From Shinisaurus crocodilurus (Eukaryota > Chordata > Lepidosauria > Squamata > Shinisauridae): a stretch of 64,000 nucleotides of DNA. The stretch is taken from the NCBI GenBank assembly GCA_021292165.1, contig CM037879.1, positions 119,353,473 to 119,417,472 on the forward strand. The letters are read 5' to 3'. Below are positions 44,316-60,165 of this stretch, piece by piece. Within the stretch, counting starts at the first letter, position 1; every line of letters begins with the position of its first letter. The notes under the pieces are model-generated. The model did not search any database. It was given only the letters and a program-made list of their open reading frames with translations, and had not been told where the DNA came from. The translations under genes were made by a program, and so were the position numbers.

Positions 44316-44612
44316 GCATATAGGCTAATTTGTGCACAGTTGCCAGCTGTCAGTTGCCTAGCAGTAACCGCAGCAGTAAGTGCTCCAAAAAGTGTGTGTG
44401 GAAGTTAATGTCTCCCCTTTCTGCAGTAGTTGGGGAAAGTGTTGAAATGGTAGAGGACAGTCAGAACTGTCAGTTCAACACTAAAAAGCCAAAGGATTAC
44501 ATTGTTAAGGGAGTGATATTGTCACCCCCCCTTTTGGTGCAGTTACTTTTGCTGCTCCCCCCCCTTAACTTTTCAATTGACAGCTGGCAACTGTGCACAA
44601 ATAGCCTATATG
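44316..44612. repeat. Inverted repeat, about 40-bp arms
   Basis: GCATATAGGCTAATTTGTGC then ACAGTTGCCAGCTGTC at the left is inverted at 44,574-44,612 (GACAGCTGGCAACTGTGCAC...). The spacer is about 215 bp. It may be the core of another fold-back element. Confidence 0.65.
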
Positions 44613-45094
44613 CAGTCTTGCCTTACCAATTTTCACATATGTTACCTACTGCAATTTCCTCCCTTTGACAGCTGAAACTTACAAGAACATTGACAAGGGA
44701 AGACTACACACATTGCACAGATGTAAGTGTGCACTTGCGCACCTGCGAAAGACTGACAATAATAATATATATATTTTAAATGACGAACACACTTGTGCAA
44801 TTTTCAGGGGGCAAAAAAACCCCATATGACCTAAATTGTGCTTTTTTGAAGCTCCTAAAAATAATTTTTAAAAACATGGGTGAACAAAAAGGGGTAGCAA
44901 TCAGAGTGGGGAGGGGGAGACAAGATGGGTCCTGCCATGAAGGATACTGGGATACCAGCTGGAGTATAGAGACGGAAGGAGGGAGAGAACAATCCATGGT
45001 GAGCCCGATCATCTGTCAGGCACACCGTGGGTTGTTCTGTGAACAAACCACAATGTGTAGCTTATTCACAAGGCGGCTTAGCATGTCGTGCAAA

Positions 45095-45345
45095 CACACC
45101 CAATGTTGATGCCTGCCTGACCTCCAGAGGTAGGGAGTTCCACAGAAAGGGAGCAACCACACTGAAAGCTCTTCTCTGGGTGGACTCCAACTGGACCATA
45201 GGTTCATGCGGAACCACCAGGAGCATGCCATCTGATGACCTCAGTGACCAGGCAGGTTGGTAAGGGAGATGGTGCTCTCTCAAGTATCCTGGTCCCAAGT
45301 TGTTTAGGGCTTTATACAGTAGTAGCAAAACCTTAAATTGTTGCA
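45095..45345 (-). mobile_element. L2-like LINE ORF2 C-terminus, antisense
   Basis: The minus strand reads QFKVLLLLYKALNNLGPGYL, then SLRSSDGMLLVVP and QRRAFSVVAPFLWNSLPLEV. The 3' UTR is missing. It is a different subfamily from the 63-kb copy. 45,346-46,679 shows nothing recognised. Confidence 0.7.
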
Positions 45346-47156
45346 GTGTGTGTGAATCGTTGCTGCCGTTCACTGTTCCAGTCAGTCAGGCCTTCCTTCC
45401 TCCATGATACTCCAACCCATTCCCCCTCCTACCCGGTTTCCTGTCTGCCCCCTCCCCCAATAGTCAGTCTTCATTCTGTGGTCACTGATCACACCCAGTC
45501 CTCATTGGGCAGTTTTTTGGGGAGCTCCCTCCCTTGGGTTTTTTTCCCCTGAAGAATTTTTCTTACCTTGGGATTCCCCCTAAGCATGCTGATTCTTCTT
45601 TCTTATATGTGGATACTGCTGTTTTGGCTACATAAGGAATGACACACACAGTCTGAAACTCAGAAATAGAGGGAATAATGCTGATGATATGCTAACTCAC
45701 ACATGTTATACCATCCTACTGCTGTTACCATACCTCAAGTAAATTTGGTGTAGGATTTTGGGTTTGAATGTGGGAAAACCATGTTCTGCGTTCAATACAA
45801 GGATGAAGTTCCCAGTGTCACCTTGGTCAAGAACTTGTTTCTCAGTTTAATTTCCCTCACACAGTTGTTGTAAGATGAAATGCCCCCATGCATGCTGAAT
45901 AAGCAGAATGTATGTAATAAATGCTATTACCATTACTACTAAGATCCCAAACAGACACAGTTAACAACTTCATCTTTCCCCCCATTTTTACCCTAGAGTA
46001 GGTGCAAGGGATCTAATCTGGATTGGGACCCTAGCATTGGGGTTGGGGGGGGGTTAACTCTTTCCTCTATGCTGTGGTTCTGATTGGTGCCTAATCTAGA
46101 ATAAAACGAAGCAGGTACATCTTAAAGTAATGTCTGTTTTGGCCTTAACACACAATCAAAGTTTATTTTTTTTTTACTTCCTCTAAGGAACTAACTAGAC
46201 ATTATGCACAAATGTGTGTAACAGAGCCCTAATGTGTGTAACAGATGATTTCTCCCCAAAAGAAAAGCAGTTGTCGGAGTTCTTTGAGTGGAGAAGTTGC
46301 TATTTCTATACTCACTTCAAATTGCCTCCTGTAGCTAACTTTTTCTTCCTGGAGGCCTAAGAATGAGTGTTTATCTGTGTTTTGAAGGGCAGGAGCAATT
46401 TGGAATGATGAAACAATGGGCAGGGAAAGGGTTAAACACTCACCACCATCACCACTACCACTTCTCCACTCAAAATCCCCCAAACTGCTTTTTCTTGAAA
46501 ACAAAACAGAGGAAGTCCATTACATGAATTACGTAGTGTGCAAGTTGTAGTAGTTAGCCCTCAAAGGCCAGTCTGCACAGAAAATATTTTGGAGTGAACG
46601 GGGATGTCTGTAGGGCTGTTCATGTTATGCTATATGCATGTACAGAAGTCTGTCTGTATGTGCAGGTGCTTGTGTGAATATGTAAAAATCCAGAGAGCTG
46701 TACGGTCTACAGTCAGGGCCGGATTAAGAGCATTATGGGCCTGGTGCTGAGGATTTTGGTGGGCCTTGTTATGGAAATAAATAAAATGAAGACGCAATTT
46801 TATATTAAAACAAATTAAATATTTTAATTACCATTAAAGTGCCAAAACAGAAACATATTGAAAATATTTCTTTTTTTGTAAACAATAAGCTTGTTAACTC
46901 AATAAAACCTGATGGAAGTGGGCAGTGTCCGTGAAAGCTTATGTCAGAATGAATGTGTTGGTCTTTAGGGTACCACAAGACTCTCTTGTTGTTCTTGCTG
47001 CAATAGACTAACACAGCCCACCCCTTTGGGAATTATGCAGACTGTTAGGCAACAATGTACACGAACCGAGCTCTTACTCAGCTGCCCCCCCCCCCACATG
47101 CTGTATGGAGAGAATCCTATTGACCTGCCTTACAGGGTTGATGTAAGGATTACAAC

Positions 47157-47330
47157 AGGGGTCCTCAAACTTTTTAAACAGGGGGCCAGTTCATTGTCTC
47201 TCAGACTGTTGGGGGACCGGACTATAGTTTTTTTTTTTTTTTTAAAAAGAACGAATGGATCAAGTAAAAAAAAAGGACCTGGGTCATTTTTTTTCACTTG
47301 ATAGGGGTGAATTTTTTTTTCTTAAATGGA
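47157..47330 (+). mobile_element. Fragment starting like a common hAT element
   Basis: CAGGGGTCCTCAAAC followed by GGGGGCCAGTTCATTG and CTCAGACTGTTGGGGG is the start of a widespread hAT family. Its right end was not found. The adjoining 46,900-47,030 contains GAAAGCTTATG...GCAATAGACTAACAC, an unclassified interspersed repeat end. Confidence 0.45.
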
Positions 47331-47417
47331 AAGTTATTATAAATTAATTATAATGTTAACAAATGATTAAATGGAGGATGGAATGTTATTTTGATGGCAA
47401 AAGTGGGTAGAAATTAA

Positions 47418-47785
47418 TGGTTTATTTATTTATTTATTCCATTTATACCCCGCTCTTCAGCCAGAAAAGGCTCTCAGAGCGGTTTACACAGATTACCGGT
47501 AATAATAAGACATTCCCTACCCTCAGGCTCACAATCTAAAGACGTGACACAAAAGGAAAAGGGATTGGGGGGGGGGGGAGGAAGAATGCCAAACATTATA
47601 TTGGTGCCTGAGTTTGGCATTCTTCCTCCTCCCTCCCAATCCCTTTTCCTTTTGTGTCATGTCTTTTAGATTGTGAGCCTGAGGGCAGGGAATGTCTTAT
47701 TATTAATCTGTGTAAGCCGCTCTGAGAGCCTTTTCTGGCTGAAGAGCGGGGTATAAATGCAATAAATAAATAAATAAATAATAAA
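47418..47785. repeat. Two L2-like LINE 3' ends, head to head
   Basis: The antisense copy at 47,418-47,600 is followed by a sense copy at 47,608-47,785. Both contain AGATTGTGAGCCTGAGGG, CGCTCTGAGAGCCTTTTCTGG and GAGCGGGGTATAAAT. Together they make a near-perfect palindrome of about 360 bp with a short loop. Confidence 0.75.
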
Positions 47786-47990
47786 TGATTAAATGGAGGA
47801 TGGAATTTTATTTCGATGGCAAAGTGGGTTTAAAAAATAAGAATGTACTACCTTTTTTGCTGTCTAAAATTGAAATACATTATAAAAGGCTACCTACAAA
47901 TTATAAGCGTGTTTTGCTTTTGTCTGGCTGCTCTGTGTGTGTGAGTGCTTTGTGTGGGGTAAACTGAAATACATTATAAAAGAGTCCCTG

Positions 47991-48132
47991 ACTCTCAGCC
48001 TAACCTACCTCACAGGGTTGTTGTGAGGATAAAATGGAGGAGGAGGAGGAGGACTATGTAAGTCGCCTTGGGTTCCTTGCAGGAAAAAAGGTGGGGTATA
48101 AATATAACAAATAAAATAAATAAATAAAATAA
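47991..48132 (+). mobile_element. MIR-like SINE, 5'-truncated
   Basis: Starts GACTCTCAGCCTAACCTACC, continues CACAGGGTTGTTGTGAGG, and ends GGTGGGGTATAAATATAAC with an AAATAAAATAAA tail. Same family as 11,040-11,285. Confidence 0.8.
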
Positions 48133-48549
48133 ATGTGAAAAGGCAGCAGCGCCTGTATGGGAAACAGGTGGGCAGGCAGGAAAGAGGGCATTCTGAGGGA
48201 AACTGAGGCAGATGCCGGGAAGGAGGGAGAGTACTTTGAAGGAAGCTGAGGCAGAAATGGAAGGAGAAAGGGAATAGAAGGGGGGGACCCACTTTGTGCC
48301 TGCCTGCCTGCCTTTCTTTTTTGCTTGTTTCCCTCGAACTTTGAGGGAAACTGTATGCAAACTTTGAGGGAAACTGAGGCAGGAAGGAAGGTGTTTTGGG
48401 GGAAGCTGAAACAGGAGAAAGAGAACAGAAGTGTCTGCGTGTGAGGGGGGGCATTTTGTGCCAGCCTTGCTTTCCTTTTTGCCTCGGTTTCCCTCAGGGA
48501 AACTGGACAAACATTGAGGGAAACTGAGGCAAAAAGAGAGGGAGACGTA

Positions 48550-49400
48550 AATGGATAAACTTGGAGGGTGGCGGCGAGAAAGGCTCCGGGGCGAGGCGGC
48601 TCTGGGGAGCATGCTCAGGTCCCCCCCCCCGCGTCCAAGCGGAGGAAGAGGAGGAGGAGGAGGAGGAGGGCGTGGCGCGCGCGCACCTCGCGGCAGCCCC
48701 ACCTGGCGAGGAGGAGGACGACGACGCCCCCAGGCATGTCGGGGGCTTCGCGTGCGCCCACCCGCCCAGTTCTCCCCCCGCCTGCTCACCTTGAAGGCGA
48801 CATCGTAGAACTCTCCGCTGTTGCTGAGCGAGGGTCTGCTGGGCAGCGCCACCCCATTGGCGGCGCAGCAGGAGGAGGAGGACACCGCCGCCGCTCTGGC
48901 TGTCCCCTTGGCCCGGGCCGCGCCCCGGCCGCCGGCATCGGCACGTTGCTGGGCGGCGGGCAGGGCGGATGAGGGCGCCGAGGTGCCGCCCTTGCTCTTG
49001 GGGCTCTTCTTGCGGGACATGCTGGCGCGGGCTCGGGCTTGGCTCAGCGCGCCCTCCCGGCCGGCTGCGAGCAGCAGCAGCAGCAGGCGGGCAGCCCCAG
49101 CGCCGGTGGCATCCCTCCGCCCCTGCCCTCTCTCCGCCCCCCGGTCCCGCTCTCGGCCGCCGCCGCTCCGTCCGTGCACCCGGCCCCGGCTGACACTCTG
49201 CGCCTCTCCGCCACTCGGAGCGCCCGAGCCCCGGCCACGGTGCCGAAGGGGCGGGAGGAAGCCAGGCGCCAGCAGCCCCGCCGGCGAGCGGCTCGGAGGC
49301 GGCAGGCCAGGGTGCGCTCACCTGCGAGTAAGAACCCTCCGCTCCGTCTCACTGTGACTTGCTTCCGAGGAGACGTTTGGCCGTAATAAGGAGGACTTAC
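48550..49400 (-). promoter_or_regulatory. CpG-rich block around RAB26 exon 1
   Basis: This stretch is far richer in G, C and CpG than its surroundings and covers the exon, its presumed 5' UTR (49,021 to about 49,400) and the start of the intron. It looks like a CpG-island promoter reading leftwards. No TATA box is evident, as usual for such promoters. CpG retention suggests it is either recent or unmethylated. 48,133-48,550 contains degenerate repeats of GAGGGAAACTGAGGCAG. Promoter activity is inferred, not shown. Confidence 0.6.
48790..49020 (-). CDS. RAB26: RAB26 first coding exon (partial gene)
   Basis: RAB26 is a small GTPase of secretory and synaptic vesicles that links them to exocytosis and autophagy. 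This exon encodes 77 residues: it starts MSRKKSPKSKG, has a low-complexity Ala/Ser-rich middle, and ends RPSLSNSGEFYDVAFK, the N-terminal extension just before the GTPase P-loop exon. The start was chosen because MSRKK.PKSKG is the conserved RAB26 beginning; an upstream in-frame ATG at 49,179 lies in the presumed 5' UTR. A phase-0 donor, AAG|GTGAGC, follows at 48,789. No GTPase motif exon (GDSGVGKTCLL and onwards) was recognised to the left on the minus strand. It lies inside a hAT-like element, so it is probably a transposed gene fragment. RAB37 fits much less well. Confidence 0.85.
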
Positions 49401-50267
49401 TGCGAAGCAAAACGCGCACGGGGTCTGGCTGCACGCTTACGCGCACTTGAACGCTGCAATCCTCACTCATTATCCACAATGAAGTGGAAGAAACGCCTCC
49501 CCCCCCCAAGAAACCACGGAGACTTCTTTCCAAATAAACACGGACAGCAGCGAGTTGTTACTAGCAAGCCTACGAGCACGTACTGAGGAGTAAGTCCGGC
49601 TGAATGCAGCGGGACTTACTTCTGAGTCGACCCGCTGCTCGGGTGCGTTCTTGCGATGCACTTGCAAAAATGCCCGAGGAGGGCTCGAGGTGCTCCAGCT
49701 CGTGAAAAAGGCTTTGAGAAGAAAGGAGGGAGGAGACAGCCGGAGTCGTAACCCTTGTAAATTGCATCTAGGGATGCAACAATTAATTGAAAGCAGATGA
49801 GATTCCTCTCCAATTTGCGGTCACAATTAAGCATTTGCTTTATGGTTTTGCTGGATCTGGACCAAATGAAAGGCAGACTTGGACAGGGAGAGAACACGAT
49901 CCCGTCTTATTTAAAGGTGCAGAACACAATAATAACCTCCAATTATTTGAAAGAAAGAAAAAAGTTTATCCTACCCTTCTTCCAAGGAGCTCAGGACGGT
50001 ATACAGTACACCAGGGGTAGGCAAGCGTTTTGCAGCAGCCCAGTTAGCTCAGAGACAGAGCCTCAGCGTGAGCGTGGGAAATGGCAACCGCTCGGCGTGC
50101 TCGCCTTGCTCCGGCAATGCCCCGCAGGCAGGACAGGTGAGCGACTGGACGACGTCACCTCGGTGACCCTCATTTCCCCCGGCGCCGCGCGTCCCTATTG
50201 GTGGGCCTATTTTTGGGGAGGGGCCTGGAGCTGCCACTCCAATAGCCCCTATCTTAATCCGGCCCTG

Positions 50268-51680
50268 TCTACAGTATCAAAGGCCTTAGCCAAATCGATA
50301 AATGCTATATAAAGGGGTTGATTTTGCTCCCGGCATTTTTCTTGGAGCTGACGTGCAGTAAAAATCATGTCTACTGTCCCTCTAGAGGGGCGGAAACCAT
50401 ATTGAGTTTCAGGGAGGATCTCTTCTGAAATAGATAGAAGACGGTTTGCGAGAATCCTAGCAAATATTTTACCTGCGGTTGCTAAGAGAGAAATGCCCCG
50501 ATAGTTTCCACAGTCTGTTCTATCACCCTTCTTAAAGAGGGTGATAATTATGGCATCCCTGAAGTCTTCTGGGATCTCTTCTCTTATCCAGATTTTTTCG
50601 ATGAGTTTATGAAGATGTTGTACAAGTTCGGGCCCCCTTCTTTAAAGATTTCAGCAGGAATTCCATCTGGTCCACTAGCTTTGTTGTTCTTCATTTGATT
50701 AATGGCTTTTTTTACTTCATCCAAAGTGGGGAGTATTGCAAGTTCCTCTTTAATTTGTTTTTGCGGGATTTGCGAGAAAATCTCATTATCCACCTTAGAT
50801 TTACGATTTAAAAGGTCATAATAATGCTCTTTCCAACGCAGTGCAATAGACTCTTTGTCTTTTAAGAGTTTGGTGCCATCTTTTGATTGTAAAGGGTTTG
50901 TACCATAGGTTTTTGGTCCATAAATGGCCCTTGTGGCCTTAAAAAGCCCTGTGCATCATGAGATTCTGCAAGTTGTTGAATTTCTTCAGCTTTCTTTTTC
51001 CACCAAGCGTTCTTAAGTTCTCTTGTTCTTCTTTGGACCTCAGCCTTTGCGCTAGCGTAGGTTTTTTTCTTGGCAGCGCAGTTAATATCATTTTGCCATA
51101 TTTGGAAGGCTTTCCTTTTTTGGTCAATTATATATTTAATCTCATTATCATTTTCATCAAACCAATCCTGATGTTTCTTAGTTTCATATCCAATAGTTTG
51201 TTCACAAGCTGCAGTAATGGAGGTTTTCAGCTTAGACCAATGGTCCTCAATGTTGTCAGGAGGTTCCGTAGGTAGATGTTCCTTAAGAAGTGATTGAAGA
51301 CGAGTTTGCTTAATAGGATCTTGAAGGACTTGGATGTTCATTTTACGCCTTGGTTTCCTTCCTTGAAGCCTACGTTGGGGAGCAATGTTGATAACCATTG
51401 TGGACCGGATTAGTCGGTGGTCTGTCCAGCAGTTGTCGGCACTCACCATGGCCCTAGTAAGAAGTACATCGCGGCGATCTCTAACACGGACAATTACATA
51501 ATCCAGAAGATGCCAGTGCTTTGACCGTGGGTGCTGCCATGATGTTTTAAACTTATTCTTTTGTTGAAAGAGCGTGTTTGTAATAGTGAGATTATGCTCT
51601 GCACATATAGACAAAAGTAAGAGTCCGTTCGGGTTGCTATTACCAACTCCGTCTTTTCCAATAGTTTCTGGCCAGATGCC
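50268..51680 (-). pseudogene. Inverted 5' part of the CCHH-finger LINE (endonuclease to RT)
   Basis: Read on the minus strand from 51,680. The C-terminal half of an APE endonuclease includes IGKDGVGNSNPNGLLLLSIC, KFKTSWQHPRSKHWHLLDYV (catalytic block) and CWTDHRLIRS (terminal SDH-like His). A linker with KKHQDWFDENDNEIKYII follows, then the RT fingers (NNKASGPDGIPAEIF) and palm motif A (IAFIDLAKAFDTVD). The last 23 bases of this part lie at 46,691-46,713 beyond the hAT insertion. It is broken by a frameshift near 50,620 and elsewhere, so it is not functional. Confidence 0.85.
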
Positions 51681-52941
51681 CCAATAAATTTGTGAATATC
51701 TTGCGACTTCTCCATGACAACATGATGGCAACGGTTTTGGACAACAACGGCTCTCATGGTGCTCCATTTAAAGTGGGATCAGGTGTTAAACAGGGATGTG
51801 TTATCGCCCCAACATTATTTGCCATTTTCATCACCATGGTTTTACATCTTGTCAAGGGGAAACTTCCCACCGGTGTGGGAATTATATATCGAACAGATGG
51901 AAAGCTTTTTAATCTCAGCAGGCTGAAAGCAAAAAGTAAGGTAATTACAACCTCCGTTGTGGAACTTCAGTATGCTGATGATAATGTGGTCTCCGCACAT
52001 TCAGAGGACGATCTCCAAACTATCCTAAATGCTTTTGCAGAAGCATACGAAAAACTTGGTCTCTCACTTAACATCAAAAAACCCAAAGTGCTTCATCAGC
52101 AAGTGCAAGCCAATCCTTTGGTGATGCCATCTATCCAGCTTGGCGGGACAATACCGGAAAATGTAGATCATTTTCTCTATCTTGGCAGCTATCTTTCTGT
52201 TACAGCTAACATCGACAGTGAAATCCAGCATCGTCTGAGCTCCGCAAGTGCCGCATTTTCTCGAATGAAACATAGAGTGTTCGAGGATCGGGATATTTGT
52301 AAGAAGACCAAAACACTGGTTTATGAAGCCATTGTATTACCAACTTTATTGTATGCCTGCGAAACATGGACTATCTATAAACGTCACTTCCACCTCCTTG
52401 AAAGGTTTCATCAACGTTGCCTCCGGAAAATCCTGCAAATTACTTGGGAAGATAGGCGAACAAATGTCAGTGTACTGGAAGAAGCAAAGACTACTAGCAT
52501 TGAAAAAATGATCCTTCAACGCCAACTTCAGTGGACCGGTCATGTTGTTCGAATGCCTGACTGCCGTCTCCCAAAGCAGTTACTTTACTCCCAGCTCAAG
52601 GATGGAAAGCGGAATATCGGTGGTCAATATAAGAGGTTTAAAGATGTTCATAAGGCTAATCTAAAAAAATGCAATATAAACATCGAAAACTGGGAAGCTC
52701 TGGCCCATGAACGATCTAAATGGAGGTTGGCCTTTCACAAAGGTTCCATGGACTTTGAAGAAGCCCGAGTGCAAGGTGAAAGGGAGAAACGTGCTAAGCG
52801 AAAAGCACGTCAAATGAATCCTTTACAGGACCATCTTCTATCTGGTAACCTGTGTCCTCACTGTGGGAAGCTGTGTGGATCTAGAATTGGCCTCCACAGT
52901 CACTTACGGACCCATCGCCAGAGTCTACACAATCTTCTTTA
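51680..52941 (+). pseudogene. Sense 3' part of the CCHH-finger LINE (RT to C-terminus)
   Basis: Open from KFVNILRLLHDNM to the stop. It includes GSGVKQGCVIAPTLFAIF (RT palm), the catalytic ELQYADDNVVSAH, the thumb (TLLYACETWTIYKRHFHLLE), WTGHVVRMPDCRLPKQLLY, a Lys/Arg-rich stretch, and a C-terminal finger CPHCGKLCGSRIGLHSHLRT with CxxC...HxxxxH spacing. The reading frame is intact in this part, but the element lacks a continuous ORF because its 5' half is inverted. The 3' end is CGCCTGATGATG. The LINE clade was not established (I/Nimb/Vingi-like). Confidence 0.85.
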
Positions 52942-53214
52942 GAATTTCCTCCTTTTATCCCGGAAGACAATCTTACTCGGTCACGAGTGATCGCCTGATG
53001 ATGTAAAAATCATATGGTATATGTGTTGATCTTAAAAATCAATATGGAGACTGGTCCGCTTAAAAATGTGGAGTATAAATTGTGCGTACTCCTGGATTCA
53101 CACTGGGTATGATCATCTGCAGTACTCTTGTGTGGCAGGCATGAGCTGTACTCTCTGTGTATGACACACTACTATTGGTGCAAGGTCATCCCATTGGGGA
53201 CAGTTTTATTCTTA

Positions 53215-59212: not shown

Positions 59213-60165
59213 CTAATAGAACTGTGAAAAACTGGAGATCCCCATCTTCCAATCTCTTATATCCCTTTCCCAGAAAAAACCTGTCAAGTATGCTGATGAA
59301 ACTGCCCCAAGAAAAGAAAGTGTCCCACACTTGAGGTGCCCCAGACCCATGCGATGTAAGGCCTTTTTAGATAGCCCCAAATTGAAACTGGGTAAGAGGG
59401 GCACCACTGATGGCGGAACACCTGGTGTGCCACCCCTGATGCTTGCAAACCTAGATGAAGCTTGAACTGGACAAATTTCTAACATCAGTGAAATGGACAA
59501 TGTGATTGCATGGCCCTTACCCCTCTGATCCGCTTTAGAAACCTGAATGCAGATCAAGACCCAGTTCTCCTGGAGACTTACATCCCATCTCTCCAGCACC
59601 ATGTTCAATGTATCATTTTTCGAATGAACCAGGAGCTCACTGATCCTCAGGGCACCAAAGAATGCTGTGAGTGCAGCCACTTGAAAAAGCATTGCTTCGT
59701 AATGGGAATTGCGAAGAACCTTCCATTGATCCTGAAGACCCAGCAACAACTCTGAAGAAATAGGAACCCCTGGATCTGTGGTGGTGGGAACTATTCTGGC
59801 CCATCCGTCCAGCATCCTTCTAACATGAAAATCTGCAGAGGTGTCCATCACACCCCAAACCTTGGATAAGAAGGCTAAATCAGTCATCTTCCCTCTCAAG
59901 GTCTGCATCTACCCTGTATGCATATACCCTGCTGATGTAGATGCAAACAGAATTGCATAAGGTGCTCCACAGGAATGGGCCATGACTGAGGGAGGCTCAC
60001 CTCAGTTCTGAACACAGAGAACTCTCTACCTGTTCTCAAATAAGTTAAATGGGTACTGGGTGTGATGGAAAGCATGCTTGCCTGTTCACCTACCATCTTC
60101 CAAGATCCCACAACGCTTGTATCATTGGGTCCAGATGTTCCCTGGCAGAAGGGGTCAGAAGCCAA
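59213..60165 (-). pseudogene. Tyrosine recombinase of a DIRS/Ngaro-like element
   Basis: The N-terminal part (VSLPQSWPIPVEHLMQFCLH) lies at 59,920-60,000 in one frame. A frameshift near 59,900 leads to LRGKMTDLAFLSKVWGV, FHVRRMLDGWARIV, and the catalytic block I FFGALRISELLVHSK with its Arg near 59,647. VSKADQRGKGHAITL and CPVQ follow. The second active-site block, usually THSFRIGAA, is eroded to GTLSFLGAVSSA, so the His and Arg are lost, and the final Tyr region is not recognisable. Such recombinases integrate circular DNA copies of the element. Not functional. Confidence 0.8.

Follow-up and report, generated by a model that had tools for sequence, protein, structure and literature searches.

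The 64-kb stretch of the Shinisaurus crocodilurus genome analysed here (the window; contig C4, 119353473-119417472) contains a 3,554-bp non-autonomous hAT-type transposon that carries a copy of the upstream region and first exon of the gene RAB26. A hAT family member most probably captured this piece of RAB26, spread and was deleted internally, and the window holds the undeleted long form, which was later duplicated; we assign this account a probability of about 0.93. It is built on the element ends, the target-site duplications (TSDs), the native donor gene, the capture boundaries, the empty parental elements, the copy number and a downstream junction common to the copies. Coordinates are given in Table 1.

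The element has identical 16-bp terminal inverted repeats (TIRs) and a perfect 8-bp TSD, TCTACAGT, both as described in the initial annotation of this DNA. hAT ends begin with CAG, as does the short TIR of the window element (CAGGGCCGGATTAAGA), and 8 bp is the TSD length of hAT elements. The right end reads ...AACA, or ...AAAA in the youngest group of copies, which also lacks 47544-47582 within the fold-back region of the backbone. A six-frame Pfam scan of the element found no transposase domain, giving one weak, unrelated match below the cut-off.

The RAB26 sense strand of the element is the minus strand. Here, an exon of 77 open codons (MSRKKSPKSKGG...GEFYDVAFK) is followed by the splice donor GTGAGC, and the two kilobases spanning 48-50 kb are rich in CpG (observed/expected 0.67 and 0.89). 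In an alignment of exon 1 with 13 RAB26 proteins from snakes, lizards, a turtle and a bird, 22 columns are invariant in 14/14 sequences, and the top protein-database match for the RAB26 query is RAB26 of the alligator lizard Elgaria multicarinata. From the exon, its donor and its CpG-rich setting, the initial annotation had proposed that a hAT element captured the RAB26 promoter region and exon 1. These features stand, and the proposal is now supported by the native gene, the block boundaries and the parental elements.

An intact, CpG-rich exon could also be the gene's own, flanked by hAT pieces, with the remaining exons from exon 2 on lying to the left. The genome refutes this possibility, which has virtually no chance of being correct. 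A genome protein search (best 140 of 785 candidates; exons 1, 2 and the last matched) located native RAB26 on contig C7, where exon 1 maps to 71641995 and the matches to exon 2 and the last exon map to 71645454 and 71806462, respectively. In the stretch of C7 that was read (L041), exon 1 is followed by its donor, and exon 2 (MLVGDSGVGKT...) lies ~3.3 kb downstream. RAB26 exon 1 is still at its native locus, and therefore the element holds a copy rather than the gene's own exon. Additionally, tblastn with a human RAB26 query found no further RAB26 exon in the 64-kb window, and the block is enclosed by an element that has a single TSD pair and is itself inserted in a long interspersed nuclear element (LINE). 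A second RAB26 locus had been predicted by the initial annotation, and it exists with both exon 1 and exon 2; the opposite arrangement, with exons 2 onward just to the left and no other exon 1 in the genome, is not found.

Alignment to the native gene in L041 yields the sharp capture boundaries that had been anticipated, although the limit at 48693 marks a loss of identity and may be off by 1-2 bases. The 991-bp block comprises 663 bp upstream of the ATG, exon 1 (231 bp), the donor and 97 bp of intron 1. Over the 470 sites in the part of the block common to all element forms, the native gene differs from the family consensus at 11 (2.3%), namely 3/143 upstream, 5/233 in the exon and 3/94 in the intron.

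The same genome retains the element in its empty state. A search with the right-hand backbone (49690-50160; best 40 of 128 candidates) returned 29 close matches at 98-100% identity, which are the window, a related locus (L028), 24 near-full-length matches (98-99%) and three partial ones (98-99%); the other 11 matched at 80-82% over a short part. A 30-mer from exon 1 occurs within 20 kb at the window and L028 only, and the other 27 of the 29 are without it. All five of these parental loci that were read (L043-L047) lack RAB26, and unit position 1978 (48691) is joined straight to 2970 (49683), as established by BLAST in four loci and by reading in L045. L043 additionally lacks unit positions 560-1587.

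The parental joint, CCTCGAGCGAGG, forms a hairpin with a 5-bp stem and a 2-base loop. In the chimera, CCTCGAGC and GCGAGG lie at opposite sides of the block; the upstream joint has 1 bp of possible microhomology, and the downstream joint carries roughly one additional base. Comparison of the joint in the chimera and the parents therefore indicates that no parental DNA was lost. The joint would fit a break at the hairpin into which native DNA was copied. Because the block has element DNA to its left and right, a composite transposition has to be considered, in which RAB26 exon 1 travelled between two hAT copies that transposed as a unit. However, the window unit contains no inner inverted ends with up to three mismatches, in the parents the two flanks run together as a single uninterrupted element and the point of insertion is clean, and the 7.6 kb around native exon 1 in L041 match the element only in the captured block and in copies of a repeat resembling a short interspersed nuclear element. 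A composite origin is thus very improbable.

Copies, deletion derivatives and the host family

In the genome assembly (2.19 Gb, 1,490 contigs), the exon-1 30-mer occurs at 87 places with up to three mismatches (control, 0). There is no mismatch at 74 places, one at 11, two at 2 and three at 0. The 87 places are native RAB26 and 86 element copies, and they fall on ten large and six small contigs. The count of 86 is a lower bound, as copies deleted at the 30-mer escape it, and some copies may be segmental duplicates. The 40 scored places of a genome similarity search are all among the 87.

Twenty-seven copies were examined (the window, L009-L028 and L048-L053, with L034 outside this set). They comprise the window, its 19 next-best similarity matches, L028 from lower in the same list and six loci from the protein search. 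Copies chosen by similarity resemble the window, so the divergences reported below are biased low, and the six protein-search copies are biased to open frames. L015, whose ends were not found, was omitted from the element alignment, and L028 was excluded from the consensus, in which the youngest group predominates. With the window and L028 treated as a single site, 26 independent sites remain, and 23 of them have both ends and an 8-bp TSD, perfect in 22 and with one mismatch in L027; at L015, L051 and L052, both ends were not found in the stretch read. The other 22 sites with both ends have TSD sequences of their own and the same element ends. Further copies with these 16-bp ends, as foreseen in the initial annotation, are thus numerous, and a 28-mer from the left end has 5,287 occurrences in the genome (up to two mismatches; control, 0).

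Only the window and L028 are undeleted among the copies examined. A deletion joining 49163 to 50163 defines a short form, ~2.55 kb in most copies, which is seen in 21/27 and probably accounts for most of the at least 86. The short form retains both ends, exon 1, the donor and 143 bp of 5' flank, and its ATG lies ~250 bp from the element end. Other right-side deletions are 49229/50176 in L017 and 49476/50162 in L020 and L010. Divergence from the consensus is 0.4-0.8% in the youngest group of 12 and 1.4-2.2% in the other eight rows. A further group (L048, L049, L050, L051 and L053) has in common MSRRKSPKSKGST or MSHRKSPKSKGST, with an in-frame extra Phe codon (GEFFY).

L028 (C4 119489678-119498068) lies 92 kb to the right of the window locus and has the same TSD and flanks. 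It is 97.8% identical to window 44508-52889 (113 mismatches in 8,422 columns, LINE and element included), with substitutions denser inside the element (2.07%). Either at least 8.4 kb were duplicated here, or the assembly includes one haplotype twice.

The apparent duplicate L028 raises the prospect that the copies at large, some of which may likewise be duplicates, arose by segmental duplication, by retrocopying or by dispersal through LINE machinery. This is most unlikely and is refuted as a general account. Processed retrocopies are free of introns and promoters, whereas the block holds 663 bp of upstream DNA plus 97 bp of intron. At the other 22 independent sites with both ends, each TSD has its own sequence and the element ends are the same.

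The origin of the copies in one capture is suggested by the RAB26/element junction on the downstream side, which is common to 20/20 rows (19 other copies and the window; up to three mismatches) and argues for one event. Two results weigh against the capture account. First, a tree of 861 bp of backbone leaves 24 RAB26 copies unseparated from four parents, with three label changes and mostly weak forks (L043, 392 bp, and L051, 417 bp, were omitted for length, as were L052 and L015). The tree is uninformative, so single origin rests on the common junction. Second, no transposase with the ends of this element was found in a genome search for the hAT dimerisation domain (PF05699) and in the 3' flanks of four loci. 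Of 7,321 candidates for the domain, 150 were scored, and 13 of these lie within open frames 838-856 aa long. Two autonomous hAT types, at four loci, have inverted 3' ends (CAGTGGCGTAGCG and CAGGGCCGGTGC, taken as the point where two loci diverge) that are unlike the family end, and one of them shares only CAGGGCCGG.

Under the capture account, a member of a very large non-autonomous hAT family would have taken up a 991-bp copy of RAB26 DNA at a short inverted repeat within the element, with no loss of element DNA. Template switching or gap repair may have served as the route of capture. The chimera would then have been mobilised in trans by a hAT transposase, and internal deletions would have produced the short form. 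The undeleted long form of the window inserted into a young LINE and probably underwent duplication afterwards along with its surroundings.

By left-end count, RAB26 copies make up ~1.6% of the hAT family. Given the size of this family, further captured host genes seem likely. The two hAT types at L054-L057 have long transposase frames at many sites, which suggests recently active autonomous hATs. Beside the parental hAT in L046 (C1385 334348-337814), a frame resembles a Copia-type gag/integrase, an impression from the translation only.

Coding and promoter potential

Judged by its sequence, the cassette has what a mobile 5' exon would need, and its RAB26 flank may have promoter activity. Exon 1 is open in 15/20 copies, and the donor GT is intact in 20/20. 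It is possible, though doubtful, that some of the at least 86 copies start transcripts in the RAB26 flank and splice the phase-0 77-codon exon to downstream exons. If so, the lizard could have acquired N-terminal fusions specific to its lineage, or novel tissue regulation, through cut-and-paste transposition instead of Helitron activity.

The likelier view of function, which is compatible with the capture history, is that the RAB26 block is inert cargo that hitch-hikes on efficient hAT ends, its copies methylated, silent and decaying neutrally. Several results point this way and weigh against a functional cassette. Five of the 20 exons are frameshifted. CpG sites of exon 1 are off the consensus at 5.2%, compared with 1.15% for other sites, and this 4.5-fold excess is as expected of methylated DNA. 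The excess is 5.8-fold in the left backbone. It is smaller, however, in the retained 5' flank (3.4% vs 2.1%, or 1.6 times), which, together with the open exons and intact donors, speaks against inert cargo. The family also spreads without RAB26, as reflected in the 5,287 left ends against 86 RAB26 copies and in the 27 of 29 close right-backbone matches without a nearby exon. In codons 1-30 and 57-78, on either side of a low-complexity middle, 12 nonsynonymous and 14 synonymous changes were counted, against a neutral ratio of ~1.5-2.0 to 1 (CpG weighting 5-15); these counts are too few to decide on constraint and are suggestive at most.

No fusion of exon 1 to a non-Ras protein was present in the best 120 of 1,063 annotated matches, all of which carry Ras-type domains, a search that spanned proteins of ~147-469 aa and in which the Shinisaurus genome is possibly without annotation. 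Short annotated proteins derived from the element were not recognisable among 11 matches of 91 candidates, several of them short unnamed proteins that could not be judged. The best short-protein match over the full exon 1 is 60% identical and bears Ras domains. On the other side, an analogous promoter cassette in bat Helitrons drives transcripts (PMC4778049). The CpG decay and the frameshifts suggest that most copies are passive, and most are probably passive cargo.

The LINE at the insertion site and feature coordinates

The window element sits in a young non-LTR LINE whose 5' part is inverted and which is flanked by its own 11-bp duplication, ATGTAAAAATC. The right copy of this duplication begins at the exact point where similarity to another LINE copy in the window stops. 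In a chance control, 11 bp or more were common to pairs of random stretches in 15 of at most 2,000 trials. Without the element and one TSD copy, the reverse transcriptase frame of the LINE reads AFIDLAKAFDTVDRTALW, and its two best relatives read AFIDLAKAFDTLNRSALW and AFIDLAKAFDTVNRSALW. Across the element-free site, the frame is AFDTVDRTALW, compared with AFDTLNRSALW and AFDTVNRSALW in the relatives. A stop comes next, which is expected there because this is the outer edge of the inverted 5' part. The frame and the LINE edges therefore show that the element entered the LINE 23 bp in from its left end. The initial annotation had inferred insertion into a LINE from the closing of this frame, which is correct; its picture of the LINE itself needs amending, as the LINE continues leftward for only 23 bp and is a 5'-inverted insertion.

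The 3' part of the LINE is 98.7% identical to the second window copy (17887-16744) over 1,147 columns, and it includes an RVT_1 domain (Pfam E 1.2e-13). The LINE (46691-53000 minus the element) has a twin-priming-like inversion, and its closest protein relatives are from Anolis (75% identical). Elsewhere in the window, a 231-aa open frame on the minus strand (59213-59908) has no Pfam match and is tyrosine-recombinase-like by impression only. Rfam and tRNA scans of the window gave no matches.

Table 1. Coordinates of the RAB26-bearing element, its parts and the surrounding LINE (window positions).
Feature	Position	Strand	Basis
Whole hAT-type element, long form	46714..50267	-	inverted ends and TSD; same ends with distinct 8-bp TSDs elsewhere
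Left TIR CAGGGCCGGATTAAGA	46714..46729	+	sequence; genome count of 28-mer starting here
Right TIR	50252..50267	-	sequence
TSD left copy TCTACAGT, 8 bp	46706..46713	.	sequence
TSD right copy TCTACAGT, 8 bp	50268..50275	.	sequence
Parental hAT backbone, left part	46714..48691	.	joins 49683 directly in L043, L044, L046, L047 (BLAST) and L045 (reading)
Parental hAT backbone, right part	49684..50267	.	short form keeps 50163-50267
Imperfect fold-back in backbone	47413..47786	.	outer arms 83 nt, 94% complementary
Captured RAB26 block, 991 bp	48693..49683	-	alignment to L041; missing from parents L043-L047
Captured upstream region, CpG-rich	49021..49683	-	short form keeps only 49021-49163
RAB26 exon 1 coding part, 77 codons, ATG 49020-49018	48790..49020	-	native counterpart in L041
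Splice donor GTGAGC	48784..48789	-	GT kept in 20/20 rows (19 other copies and window)
Host LINE left piece	46691..46713	-	frame and LINE comparison
Host LINE inverted 5' part	50268..51690	-	right limit approximate
Host LINE 3' part, RVT_1	51675..53000	+	left limit approximate
LINE TSD ATGTAAAAATC, left	46680..46690	.	repeat search
LINE TSD ATGTAAAAATC, right	53001..53011	.	repeat search

Relation to known capture systems

Helitrons transpose by a rolling circle and leave no target-site duplication, whereas the RAB26 elements have 8-bp TSDs. Plant Pack-TYPE elements are mostly of other superfamilies. The RAB26 element belongs with the Pack-TIRs and would work like the bat Helitron HelibatN3. 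As expected of a Pack-TIR, it carries host-gene DNA with a traceable parental gene (native RAB26 in L041), has element counterparts without the captured DNA (L043-L047 and the 27 places without a nearby exon 30-mer) and has become multicopy by transposition (86 copies, distinct TSDs). No earlier description of a RAB26-bearing transposon was found in literature searches screened by title and the opening of the abstract, where coverage of subscription journals was thin.

Animal Pack-TIRs are likewise TIR DNA transposons with a host-gene copy. Within the available part of their survey, Tan et al. (2021; PMC8277862) count 370 Pack-TIRs in 100 animal genomes, of which 208 are hAT, the commonest class, and propose gap filling and fork switching for their capture. 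Four multicopy cases in reference genomes (given as 1.4%) are listed there, three in frog and one in alligator; hAT-N8_XT, for example, carries 291 bp of the CAPSL 5' untranslated region at three frog sites with distinct TSDs (PMC8277862). Unlike the multicopy cases described in that text, which have three or four loci, the RAB26 element has at least 86 copies (PMC8277862). By comparison with the Pack-TIRs described, it also has a promoter region, a whole coding exon and a donor, with the empty parent in the same genome. Ssk-FB4 of Drosophila, a four-copy element judged a Pack-MULE and studied in fly populations, similarly captured a 5' upstream region with the gene and transposed again, and one of its copies was also tandemly duplicated (PMC8277862, as far as it describes the case).

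Plant Pack-MULEs and Pack-TYPE elements, as outlined in part of PMC8903248, are non-autonomous TIR elements that shuffle coding DNA; the RAB26 element is of the same kind and differs in host. In rice, 36% of Pack-MULEs are multicopy (cited in PMC8277862). In bats, HelibatN3 Helitrons combine the promoter of NUBPL with six of its codons and a splice donor; they were amplified and drive transcripts (PMC4778049). The RAB26 element resembles them as an amplified mobile 5' exon with a captured promoter, N-terminal codons and a donor, but HelibatN3 is a Helitron with six NUBPL codons (PMC4778049), whereas the RAB26 element has 8-bp TSDs and 77 codons.

Capture of genes by TIR transposons has been amply documented in plants, and in the one animal survey considered here almost only single copies appear (PMC8277862). 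Here, one vertebrate genome shows all stages, from the empty parent and the intact donor gene through the capture joint and the undeleted chimera to the deletion derivatives and a young expansion. The mechanism of capture and exon trapping by a mobile promoter thereby become directly testable.

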